Part shown: in pieces, positions 1,597 through 4,856 of the stretch
Numbering within the stretch: the stretch's first letter is position 1
How the letters are laid out: every line of letters starts with the position of its first letter
NCBI GenBank assembly: GCA_027622555.1
Contig: JAQBYJ010000047.1
Span: forward strand, 1-41,267
Direction of reading: 5' to 3'
DNA from: Verrucomicrobiota bacterium
GTDB lineage: Bacteria > Verrucomicrobiota > Verrucomicrobiia > Opitutales > UBA2995
Length of the DNA: 41,267 nucleotides
Program-made: the position numbers and the translations under genes
Notes under the pieces: generated by a model
Databases searched by the model: none
What the model saw: the letters and a program-made list of their open reading frames with translations, nothing else
What the model was told of the DNA's origin: nothing

Positions 1597-3735
1597 TTAC
1601 TTGGTCAGGGATTTTAACACATTGTGAATCAGTTTTAGCCCAAGGTGTCCGCGGAGAGTTAATATTGATTCCGGATGAAACTGAACGGCGGAATAGGGAA
1701 GGTCCTTATGCTGTATACCCATAATGATTCCGTCTTCTGTCTGGGCGGTTATTTCCAAACATTCGGGCAAGCTCGCTTTATCGGCGTAGATCGAGTGATA
1801 ACGTCCTGCCCGAAAAGATTCAGGAAACCCTTCAAACAGTCCTGACTGGTTATTGCTAATCTGGGAAGGTTTACCATGCATCGGATAATCAAGTAAATTT
1901 AGATTTCCACCAAACGCCTGAACCATTCCTTGCAGTCCAAGGCATACTCCGAAGCAGGGAATCCCCTTTGCCACACAATAATTGACAACTTCTGGAACTT
2001 TGAACTCTTCGGGAGTCCCCGGACCAGGTGATATGAAAACGAGATTCGGATTGTATTCATCGATCATGGACAATGGAAACCCCGCACGGATGGTGATCAC
2101 TTCTGCCTGGGCCTGGCGGAAATAATTTGCCAGCGTGTGCACAAAAGAATCCTGGTTATCGACAAAGAACACGCGCGGCTTAAAGCCTTCAATGTGAGGA
2201 ACCACAAAACCTTGTTCTACGTCCCGGGTTTTGCCGGCCAGCACGTCGAGAAATGCGCTCGCTTTGGTGCGACATTCCAATTCTTCGGCAACGGGGTCTG
2301 AGTCACAAAGCAAAGTGGCCCCGACCCGGAATTTGGCCAGACCGTCTTTCATGTGAATTGTTCGGATGGTGATGCCCGTGTTCATATCTCCGTTGAAACC
2401 GATAAAGCCAACCGCCCCTCCATACCATTCCCGTGGTGAGTTTTCCAGGTCTTCAATTCGTTGCATGGCTGCCGGCTTGGGTGCTCCGGTGAGCGTGCAG
2501 GCCCACATATGAGAGAGCAAAGCATCAAATGCATCGTAACCATCCAGCAACTCACCTTCCACATGATCCACGGTGTGGAACAAGCGGGAATAAGCCTCAA
2601 TCAGGCGGCGCCCGACTACTTCTACTGATCCCGGTTTGCACACACGTGATTTGTCATTGCGGTCAACGTCGGTGCACATCGTCAACTCGGCCTCGTCTTT
2701 TTTGGATGTCATCAGCTCGAGTATGCGCTCGGCATCTTCGATCGCATTATTCCCGCGAGGAGCTGTTCCCGAAATGGGGCAGGTCTCAACGGTCGTCCCT
2801 TTCACGCGCACAAACATCTCTGGTGAGGCGCCGATCAGTTGTTCATTTCCCAGATTGATTAGAAATTCATAAGGGCTTGGGTTAACAACCCGTATCTTGT
2901 CGAACAACTCGCGCGGGGTGTCTTTGGTTCCACCTTCAAAAACCTGGCTTAGCACGACTTCAAAGAAGTCTCCCTTCCGCGTGCCATTGATTATTTTTTC
3001 AACCTTTTCAGCGTACTCCCCTGGAGCATTGTCACTTGCAATTTCCTTATTCTGCGAAGGCGGCAATTCTACGTATTTGCCAGTTCGGCTTAGACCTATA
3101 GTCGAATTTGAACCAGACTTGAAATCATAATTTCTGACTTCCGCCGTTTCTTTTCGGTGGTCCACGATAAACAGCTGGTCGGGTAAGAAAAGGTGGGCAT
3201 CGGCGTAATCATCCGGTCGTTCGTGTTTCAATTGAATGGGCTCGAACTGAAAAACCAGGTCATAACCAAAGGAACCGAAAAATCCCAGATACTCATCATT
3301 CGAAGAACCAAACGACTCACGAATGGATCGAAGCATGGAAAATAACCCCGGCTGTTTACTTCGTTCTTCTTCAGGAAAATAATCCGGCATTGGAACTAAC
3401 TCCCCGCTCACGGAGCTTTCCCCGATTTCCAAACACTTGATGTAGGCCTTGCCTTCGATGGCTTGGCAGATCATCGGCAGGATTAGGTTGCCGCGGTCAT
3501 TGAGGGCGTTGATTTCAAATTTGCGATGCCGCCCAATGATTTCAATGGGAGGCCTGATAAAACCAATGTCCCACCGACTGTAACGACCCGGGTATTCGTA
3601 GCCGCTGCAAAACAGGGCTCCTTGATTATGATCAATGGCATCAAAAGCTTCATTCAATGCTTCAGAATAAGGAAGGGCATCCGTCTCGCATATGACGGTG
3701 GTTCCTCCAGGAGTTTGATATTCGATTTTAGACAT
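1597..3735 (-). CDS. trpEG: Fused anthranilate synthase, TrpE-TrpG
   Basis: Catalyses chorismate plus glutamine to anthranilate, the first committed step of tryptophan synthesis. The protein is about 712 residues from the ATG at 3733-3735 (MSKIEYQTPGG). The N-terminal two thirds is the chorismate-binding TrpE part, with DVDRNDKSRVCKPGSVEVV and LTGAPKPAAMQRIEDLE motifs. The C-terminal part is a class I glutamine amidotransferase with its nucleophile in CFGVCLGLQG (about residue 597) and the His-Glu pair in AVQFHPES. Fusions of this kind are known as TrpE(G) in rhizobia. The frame stays open upstream to 3900, but that extension runs through the attenuator hairpin and the leader-peptide region and is not TrpE-like, so I reject it. 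Regulation is probably by the leader and attenuator at 3779-3871. DUF420 follows 4 nt downstream. Confidence 0.95.
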   Translation of the reverse strand: MSKIEYQTPGGTTVICETDALPYSEALNEAFDAIDHNQGALFCSGYEYPGRYSRWDIGFIRPPIEIIGRHRKFEINALNDRGNLILPMICQAIEGKAYIKCLEIGESSVSGELVPMPDYFPEEERSKQPGLFSMLRSIRESFGSSNDEYLGFFGSFGYDLVFQFEPIQLKHERPDDYADAHLFLPDQLFIVDHRKETAEVRNYDFKSGSNSTIGLSRTGKYVELPPSQNKEIASDNAPGEYAEKVEKIINGTRKGDFFEVVLSQVFEGGTKDTPRELFDKIRVVNPSPYEFLINLGNEQLIGASPEMFVRVKGTTVETCPISGTAPRGNNAIEDAERILELMTSKKDEAELTMCTDVDRNDKSRVCKPGSVEVVGRRLIEAYSRLFHTVDHVEGELLDGYDAFDALLSHMWACTLTGAPKPAAMQRIEDLENSPREWYGGAVGFIGFNGDMNTGITIRTIHMKDGLAKFRVGATLLCDSDPVAEELECRTKASAFLDVLAGKTRDVEQGFVVPHIEGFKPRVFFVDNQDSFVHTLANYFRQAQAEVITIRAGFPLSMIDEYNPNLVFISPGPGTPEEFKVPEVVNYCVAKGIPCFGVCLGLQGMVQAFGGNLNLLDYPMHGKPSQISNNQSGLFEGFPESFRAGRYHSIYADKASLPECLEITAQTEDGIIMGIQHKDLPYSAVQFHPESILTLRGHLGLKLIHNVLKSLTK

Positions 3736-3778
3736 CTTGAAAGTGGTTGTATGCTTTATGTTGGTTTGTGAGTTTTGG

Positions 3779-3814
3779 AAAATAAAAAACGCGGTCCTTT
3801 TGGGTGGAACCGCG
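3779..3814 (-). terminator. trp attenuator: intrinsic terminator hairpin
   Basis: Reading the minus strand, the stem arm CGCGGTTCC (3814-3806) pairs with GGACCGCG (3797-3790) around an 8-nt loop, with one unpaired T. The 3' arm runs straight into six T residues, then ATTTT. This is a textbook Rho-independent terminator, placed about 45 nt before the trpEG start codon. It can only stop transcription before trpEG, so it is an attenuator and not the end of another gene. The 5' arm can alternatively pair with an identical GGACCGC heptamer further upstream (3833-3839). Confidence 0.9.
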
Positions 3815-3855
3815 TAATGCATATTGAAACAGGCGGTCCTACATTTCGGACCACC
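3806..3855 (-). promoter_or_regulatory. trp leader alternating stems (1:2 and 2:3 antiterminator)
   Basis: Three segments precede the terminator's 3' arm. Segment 1 is GGTGGTCC (3855-3848), made from the Trp codons. Segment 2 is GGACCGCC (3839-3832), starting on the last base of the leader stop codon. Segment 3 is GCGGTTCC (3813-3806). Segment 1 pairs with 2 across all 8 positions with one G-U. Segment 2 pairs with 3 with one bulged T. Segment 3 pairs with 4 in the terminator. Segments 2 and 4 share the same heptamer, so the 2:3 and 3:4 structures are mutually exclusive. A ribosome stalled on Trp codons would free segment 2 and prevent termination, the classical attenuation logic. Confidence 0.85.
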
Positions 3856-3871
3856 ACCAAAGGTTACCCAT
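3839..3871 (-). CDS. trpL: trp leader peptide, MGNLWWWSEM
   Basis: A 10-codon minus-strand frame (ATG at 3869-3871, TAG at 3839-3841) carries three consecutive TGG tryptophan codons at positions 5-7. It lies just upstream of the attenuator, and its stop overlaps segment 2, as the attenuation model requires. Consecutive Trp codons in a ten-residue frame directly upstream of a trp gene are very unlikely by chance. The leader of rhizobial trpE(G) also has three adjacent Trp codons. No strong ribosome-binding site is visible before the ATG. A different ATG at 3886-3888 opens the frame that runs into trpEG and would not read the Trp codons. Confidence 0.85.
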   Translation of the reverse strand: MGNLWWWSEM

Positions 3872-3874
3872 TGC

Positions 3875-3919
3875 GGAGCTTTGCTCATCCCTGTCGACAA
3901 ACGACTCTGGAGCTTTGCT
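3875..3919. repeat. Paired 11-bp direct repeat upstream of trp leader
   Basis: The plus-strand 11-mer GGAGCTTTGCT occurs at 3875-3885 and again at 3909-3919, 34 bp apart, in the spacer between the trp leader and the divergent IclR-type gene. A third copy of its first ten bases is at 150-159. The 34-bp spacing is close to three helical turns, so a tandem operator is possible. A dispersed short repeat is equally possible. Confidence 0.35.
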
Positions 3920-4127
3920 GGAATGGATTTTCTCAGGCTTCATAATTTGTCTTTTCCAGTTTGGACCCTCAAACGTCAAGCGCCAACTCCTATGGTCTAC
4001 CTACCTGTGCTCAGCAATCATTCCTAAATATGGGGTGCTTTGTCCCACGCAGCAATTTTGCTGTGCAGGTATTATTGTTGATTTTATAGCAACAATTTGC
4101 CTTAAAGTAACTGAGTTCCCACCTATT

Positions 4128-4856
4128 ATGCTGCCTGCCCAACCCAATAGAAGTTTGATGGACGGTATTCGCTGTCTGCAAATCCTGGCCGCCAACCCAG
4201 GACCTATAGGGGCCCGCGAGTTGGCACGACGGTTGAACATGGAAACCACTCGTGCGCATCGCCTGGTAAAGACTCTGGCCCATATGGGAATGGCCCGCCA
4301 GAATAGAAACTCCAAGTACATGCCGGGTCCCGCCATGCAAGTTATGGCCGCACAAAGTCTCTATTCTTCTGGCTTGATTGGAAATACTACCAAGTCGCTC
4401 TTGGATCTGCACAAAAGATTAAATTTGTTAACTGCCTTTGGCATGCTTTGGGAGCGCAACGTTTATTACTTGTATCATTTAATGCCTGGTATGTCGCCAG
4501 AAGAGGCGGTTAGTTGCATGCGTTTACAACCCGTTACTCAATCCGGCATTGGAATGATGCTACTTTCCAAAAAAACAGACGAAGAGGTTCGTGAGTTTTT
4601 TGATGGAGTTGATGAAATTCCTGCCTATACTGGCGGCGTTGAAATGGTCATTGATGAGCTTCACAAGATCAGAAAACGGGGCTACGCTTTTGTAGAAATG
4701 CATACGGGAAACAATGAGTTCTCCCTCGCAACCATGTCTCCTAACAACCTCTACACGGGAGTGGCCCTAGGAGGTGCAATTGAAGAAGGACGAATTCCTG
4801 AACTCCTCGAAGAATTAAACAAAGCCTTGGTGGTCATGTTTCCCAAGGCTCCCTGA
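4128..4856 (+). CDS. IclR-family transcriptional regulator
   Basis: A 242-residue protein using the ATG at 4128 (MLPAQPNRSLMDG). Residues about 9-65 form a winged helix-turn-helix (IGARELARRLNMETTRAHRL, then VKTLAHMGM). The rest resembles the IclR effector-binding domain, with the late block GYAFVEMHTGNNEFSLAT and a final amphipathic helix ELLEELNKAL. The frame is open upstream to 3915, but the extension has no family resemblance and overlaps the divergent trp control region, so I chose the shorter start. IclR proteins usually bind small aromatic or carbon-source ligands; this ligand is unknown. Its position back to back with trpEG allows a role in trp or chorismate metabolism, but this is only positional. 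Confidence 0.78.
   Translation: MLPAQPNRSLMDGIRCLQILAANPGPIGARELARRLNMETTRAHRLVKTLAHMGMARQNRNSKYMPGPAMQVMAAQSLYSSGLIGNTTKSLLDLHKRLNLLTAFGMLWERNVYYLYHLMPGMSPEEAVSCMRLQPVTQSGIGMMLLSKKTDEEVREFFDGVDEIPAYTGGVEMVIDELHKIRKRGYAFVEMHTGNNEFSLATMSPNNLYTGVALGGAIEEGRIPELLEELNKALVVMFPKAP

Follow-up and report, generated by a model that had tools for sequence, protein, structure and literature searches.

The window, that is, the whole stretch of 41,267 nucleotides analysed here, comes from a Verrucomicrobiota bacterium of the order Opitutales. On its minus strand, a gene encoding a fused anthranilate synthase is preceded by a short open reading frame with three adjacent Trp codons and by a candidate attenuator, and a regulator gene diverges from them on the plus strand. 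The features are the following:

1597..3735, minus strand: trpEG, fused anthranilate synthase components I and II, 712 aa (NCBIfam TIGR01815 TrpE-clade3, 932 bits; PRK13566, 1007 bits; both over the cut-off)
3784..3797, minus strand: segment 4 GGACCGCGT (3797-3789) and the six-T run, an intrinsic terminator with segment 3 (3:4 paired in 53/54 cells)
3806..3815, minus strand: segment 3 ACGCGGTTCC (2:3 paired in 42/42 cells)
3832..3839, minus strand: segment 2 GGACCGCC, sharing one base with the stop codon, with conserved pairing with segments 1 and 3
3848..3855, minus strand: segment 1 GGTGGTCC, overlapping Trp codons 30-31 and Ser 32 (1:2 paired in 48/48 cells, six genomes)
3851..3859, minus strand: Trp codons 29-31, TGGTGGTGG, from the sequence and the six-genome alignment
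3839..3943, minus strand: leader ORF trpL of 34 codons and a stop, MKPEKIHSSKAPESFVDRDEQSSAMGNLWWWSEM (start ATG and stop TAG conserved in 6/6 genomes, no indel)
3867..3927, minus strand: probable 5' stem-loop within the leader ORF, arms 3927-3917 and 3879-3867 (six-leader consensus fold; the 3' arm contains the inner ATG)
3975..3979, minus strand: TTGAC, probable -35 box, 36 nt upstream of the outer ATG (CTTGAC invariant in six genomes)
3915-4856, plus strand: divergent IclR-type regulator (weak family matches only), adjoining the candidate attenuator in the six same-genus genomes

By profile match, the gene downstream of the leader is a fused trpE(G) of the TIGR01815 family. Its four nearest relatives in the named genome collection, one of them cut by a contig end, share 78-86% identity with it and come from uncultured Opitutales (two), Opitutia and Verrucomicrobia. 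In the genome of the window, no gene for anthranilate synthase component I other than trpEG was found. Since the sole other chorismate-binding enzyme found there is an isochorismate synthase according to NCBIfam, an attenuator at this place would control the committed step.

The first-pass annotation had described a complete attenuator, and all of its parts are found in the window where it placed them. The minus-strand frame MGNLWWWSEM runs from the ATG at 3871 to the TAG at 3841-3839 and is followed by the three pairing segments and by six T residues (3789-3784). The last base of the stop codon is the first base of segment 2, and the heptamer GGACCGC is common to segments 2 and 4. The terminator hairpin 3:4 has a predicted energy of -13.4 kcal/mol (z -4.03), and only 1/200 dinucleotide shuffles of the 93-nt stretch folds equally well (z -2.97). 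The window contains the terminator pattern once, and none of 100 shuffles contains it. In the same way, the pattern leading from the Trp codons to the stop is seen once in the 6.0-Mb genome and never when this genome is read backwards. TGGTGGTGG by itself is weak evidence, with 3 matches in the window versus 0.17 expected. It should be emphasized that simple scans of positions 3500-4300 called neither a terminator nor a sigma-70 promoter and thus missed the terminator of the attenuator.

The candidate attenuator lies ahead of trpEG in 6/6 genomes of the genus examined, that of the window included. In one of them, G099 (locus L010), it first appeared to be missing. Reading 1.5 kb overturned this: the element is located about 0.4 kb further up, and the stretch that separates it from trpEG, from about -430 to -50 relative to the gene, is unrelated sequence. 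In the sister genus, the whole element is absent from 2/2 genomes; the divergent IclR-like gene is also gone and an OsmC-like gene, named by eye, adjoins trpEG instead. The joint absence of the leader and the IclR-like gene fits a single deletion. A fused TrpEG is present in 8/8 genomes of the family examined (cut by the contig end in G099). Among 288 genomes drawn from the phylum, a draw that evidently did not include other members of the family, one exceeds the cut-off for this fused protein, and it is the genome of the window itself.

A covariance model built from the six leaders retrieved the same six among 177 genomes of the order at E < 1e-18 and no others; these six match by construction, and the search is informative for the lack of others. 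Three further matches (G074, G060 and G172, E 2e-5 to 7e-4) were rejected since, inspected by eye, they look like ordinary terminators that adjoin other genes.

In L004, L005, L006, L007 and L010, the first terminator is closely followed by another terminator-like hairpin (GCCGTGG...CCACGGC or a sequence close to it, then a T run), which is lacking in the window. In L004, this hairpin is flanked by TTTTATTTTCC repeats, so that its loss by recombination is possible.

The same order also harbours other leaders. In five genomes of family f16 (L011-L014 and L016), a different WW leader precedes an unfused trpE-trpG pair. Its peptides read MRNWWHSPKVA, MNNWWFSKGSHRV, MQNWWFSRKVA or MNAWWFSRGVA, the start in L011 being GTG. 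These leaders are located at about 790 in L011, at 1038 in L012, at 1034 in L013 and at about 1035 in L014 and L016 (reverse orientation), and are followed by a long hairpin and then by a terminator-like stem with a T run. Furthermore, another WW frame, MSAQLHTTNRWWRRQVCR, precedes trpE in L015, from family f13 (about 671, reverse orientation), and has hairpins downstream. Trp attenuation may have entered Opitutales, or evolved there, more than once.

The first-pass annotation proposed to look for covariation of the stems among relatives, and the outcome was mixed. Pairing is kept: in the six-genome alignment, every cell of 1:2 and 2:3 and all cells of 3:4 except one hold standard pairs, and the share of paired cells falls to 25-64% when the partners of 1:2 or 2:3 are shifted by one to three columns. 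However, pairs changed on both sides number 0 in 1:2, 0 in 2:3 and 1 in 3:4. The value of 3:4 is reached by 181/500 shuffles and those of 1:2 and 2:3 by 500/500, so that the latter two are not separable from mere conservation. The evidence for stem pairing rests mostly on unchanged or one-sided pairs and not on covariation. A loss of the Trp codons or of the alternating stems in related genomes, which would have spoken against attenuation, is not seen in the genus: the leader, at least two Trp codons and the three stems are kept in all six genomes.

This pattern bears on another explanation, according to which the element is a plain intrinsic terminator, the WWW frame and the other stems being fortuitous and devoid of any tryptophan regulation. 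It is true that the terminator is the best conserved part of the element and that the three weak model matches found elsewhere in the order resembled ordinary terminators. However, this explanation leaves several observations unaccounted for: all six genomes retain the frame at the same length with at least two of the Trp codons, segment 2 repeats segment 4 while staying complementary to segments 1 and 3, and a promoter-like box stands at a fixed distance from the ATG. Moreover, the gene upstream of the element runs divergently, so that there is no upstream gene on the same strand whose transcription would need to be ended. A plain terminator therefore appears extremely improbable.

The frame with its three adjacent Trp codons stands as first described, whereas its length of 10 codons does not: an outer ATG at 3943 gives 34 codons in 6/6 genomes. 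The two remaining reading frames across the leader contain stops in six and five of the six genomes. The inner ATG (3871) is kept in five genomes of the genus and is replaced by ATA in L006. The third Trp codon is CGG in L007. L005 carries an extra in-frame ATG 34 codons further upstream, which precedes the TTGAC box. Attenuation with translation from the inner ATG, yielding the 10-codon peptide, would agree with the presence of this codon in most genomes of the genus. However, L006 has ATA in its place whereas the outer ATG is invariant, the 34-codon frame is uninterrupted by stops in every genome and the inner ATG sits in the 3' arm of a conserved stem. Such a start is very unlikely, and the inner frame was ruled out as the leader or as a conserved unit.

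The distance from TTGAC to the outer ATG is 36, 36, 36, 35, 36 and 36 nt in the six genomes (35 in L006). Such a spacing would put the transcription start site on or beside this ATG. No clear -10 box was seen upstream of the leader, in agreement with the scan for sigma-70 promoters between 3500 and 4300. The spacing of TTGAC, even with no clear -10 box, suggests that the leader mRNA is probably leaderless.

The leader ORF also encloses a stem of its own, which is probably real as judged from the alignment. Its cells are paired at 98.5%, with three pairs changed on both sides; in L006, the compensating change in this stem is also the one that converts the inner ATG to ATA. Its covariation score is reached by 13/500 shuffles and its number of pairs changed on both sides by 46/500. 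The minimum-energy fold of the window's own sequence lacks the stem, whether this part is folded by itself or within the complete leader. Four of the six leaders show it clearly when cut before the Trp codons (G064, G032, G048 and G099), and three of the six do so at full length (G032, G089 and G099). A possible basal extension reaching the first Trp codons (columns 68-74 with 144-150) is paired at 81%.

Between codons 2 and 28, all pairwise comparisons of the six genomes give 256 non-synonymous versus 41 synonymous codon differences. A conserved function of the leader peptide was thus rejected, as no amino-acid constraint was seen and the peptide varies freely at a fixed length. This matters for a variant in which attenuation would be combined with an action in trans of the terminated RNA or of the peptide, like that reported for rnTrpL/peTrpL in Sinorhizobium meliloti. 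The anatomy is the same as that of a system having this property (PMC7298713), and terminated transcripts would be small mRNAs, probably leaderless, that carry a 5' stem. By analogy, such an additional action is conceivable, but it is rather unlikely given the lack of any sign of constraint on these codons.

The claim that terminator and antiterminator are mutually exclusive agrees, as far as folding goes, with the predictions made in 6/6 genomes for different ribosome positions. A stalled ribosome was represented by a 12-nt mask beginning with the first base of the Trp31 codon, and a ribosome at the end of the leader by one beginning with the first base of the stop codon. With the mask at Trp31 and segment 4 not yet made, 2:3 folds in 6/6 leaders (-9.2 to -11.9 kcal/mol). 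With the mask at the stop codon, 3:4 folds in 6/6 (-13.8 to -17.8 kcal/mol). In the absence of a ribosome and before segment 4 is made, 1:2 or its core forms in five of the six leaders and 2:3 forms in G099. When segment 4 is present in the stalled case, 3:4 beats 2:3, the antiterminator being weaker than the terminator. Since 3:4 wins whenever segment 4 is present, the switch must be kinetic, its outcome being set by the order and timing of events, as the classical model has it.

Altogether, the anatomy, the conservation in the six genomes and the exclusivity of the folds make it highly probable that the element is a ribosome-mediated transcription attenuator of trpEG. Classical attenuation, proposed at the outset with a comparison to rhizobial trpE(G), remains the best reading and this comparison is apt. 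The start site, stalling, termination and tryptophan response that it predicts would be as follows. Transcription would begin at the outer AUG or within a base or two of it, according to the TTGAC spacing, and the ribosome would translate the 34-codon leader carrying Trp29-Trp30-Trp31. When charged tRNA-Trp is scarce, it would stall at the Trp codons and cover segment 1, leaving segment 2 free for segment 3; once 2:3 is formed, the terminator could not form in time and trpEG would be transcribed. When tryptophan is plentiful, the ribosome would reach the stop codon and cover segment 2, allowing 3:4 to terminate transcription near 3784. In an untranslated leader, 1:2 would form, and termination would ensue.

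Looking for comparable leaders in other phyla was based on a simple definition: ATG, TGGTGG and a stop within at most 40 codons, located no more than 300 nt from the TrpEG match (650 nt in the case of L010). Loci were obtained from 30/31 genomes with a match in a first draw and from 30/35 in a second one. A WW leader precedes fused trpEG in 51/76 loci, the six same-genus loci included, versus 0/76 on the reverse strand. By group, it is found in 6/6 loci of the genus, 0/2 of the sister genus, 30/30 of the Pseudomonadota draw, 9/27 of the class of G795 (presumably Alphaproteobacteria; 27 new loci after dropping 3 repeats), 5/9 of the plasmid collection and 1/2 of Planctomycetota. Pseudomonadota loci with a leader, that of L062 among them, amount to 39/57 in total. 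Six alphaproteobacterial plasmid records include four with the leader (L076-L079) and two without (L080 and L081); it is present in Nonomuraea and absent in Legionella and Streptomyces. L115 and L116 have no leader on either strand; the gene start used shows an open frame in the remaining 74 loci. A TTGAC placed 35-38 nt upstream of an in-frame ATG is seen in 24/51 leader-bearing loci and in 18/57 Pseudomonadota loci. In L086, a Planctomycetota locus with fused trpEG, the leader MIYNNQQMNRVWWRGWQKTWPN is located 171 nt upstream of the match and is followed by a hairpin and nine T residues.

The covariance model, given 26 loci, matched at E up to 1 only L011-L014 of family f16, from the same order (E 0.02 to 0.67); it missed all the Pseudomonadota, actinobacterial and planctomycete leaders among them. 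A blastn search of the element against plasmids gave no match.

In a TrpEG tree of 64 of 79 rows (15 repeats, near copies or rows with an unsure start were dropped by hand), built with a midpoint root and a simpler model and subject to warnings on long branches and on the letter make-up of L003 and others, the Opitutales proteins form a group with the Planctomycetota protein of L086 (98/87), which the other one, L087, joins (100/99). Next to this group come ten proteins of the G795 class (100/99). A tree with a distant TrpE outgroup, meant to give the direction of transfer, came with long-branch warnings and had no usable root. The switch has perhaps spread together with the trpEG gene. A broader proposal combines two ideas: that this is a leaderless variant whose own leader stem pauses or slows translation, keeping ribosome and RNA polymerase in step, and that the gene travelled with its switch between PVC bacteria (Planctomycetota, Verrucomicrobiota) and Pseudomonadota. 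This proposal is tentative, a possibility somewhat less favoured than its negation. The tie between the switch and one gene family, fused trpEG, makes their joint spread testable. Furthermore, the long leader and its covarying stem amount to a natural experiment, on a small scale, in how the ribosome stays coordinated with the polymerase when the leader mRNA is probably leaderless.

No description of a trp attenuator in Verrucomicrobia or Opitutales was found in the literature searched, subscription journals lying largely outside it. The term Verrucomicrob is absent from the main text of PMC4833913 and the term Verrucomicrobi from that of PMC2965389. Among 4227 Rfam families, none matches the window at the gathering score, and the element itself has two far sub-threshold matches (E 2 and 2.9). 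RF02552 (RcsR1), which covers the S. meliloti leader, matches L076 and L046 and none of the six Opitutales loci.

The trp leader of E. coli works by a four-segment logic, and the enterobacterial leader precedes the whole trp operon. The Opitutales element shares the four-segment logic; unlike its enterobacterial counterpart, it is followed by fused trpEG and not by a whole trp operon, and the alignment, read by eye, shows no conserved ribosome-binding site before the leader ATG. In other Pseudomonadota and in one Planctomycetota genome (L046-L075, L086, L091 and others), a WW(W) leader likewise stands directly before fused trpEG; these leaders are mostly shorter (13-22 codons, with an ambiguous start in several) than the 34-codon Opitutales leader.

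As in rhizobial trpL-trpE(G), a fused trpE(G) lies downstream, consecutive Trp codons are found near the stop and a terminator precedes the gene. In S. meliloti, the trpLE leader is annotated 114 bases before the anthranilate synthase gene. According to PMC7298713, from which the mechanism and its link with rhizobial trpE(G) are already known, it is subject there to Trp-regulated attenuation with its 5' end at the trpL ATG; the Opitutales leader probably begins in the same way. It differs from the 14-codon S. meliloti leader by its 34 codons, by the covarying stem within its ORF and by its occurrence in another phylum. By sequence and conservation, Verrucomicrobiota, along with one Planctomycetota genome, are added to the bacteria with probable trp attenuation. 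The element is real and conserved in its genus, and it is most likely a working trp attenuator of the rhizobial kind, new in its phylum and its details and ordinary in its principle.
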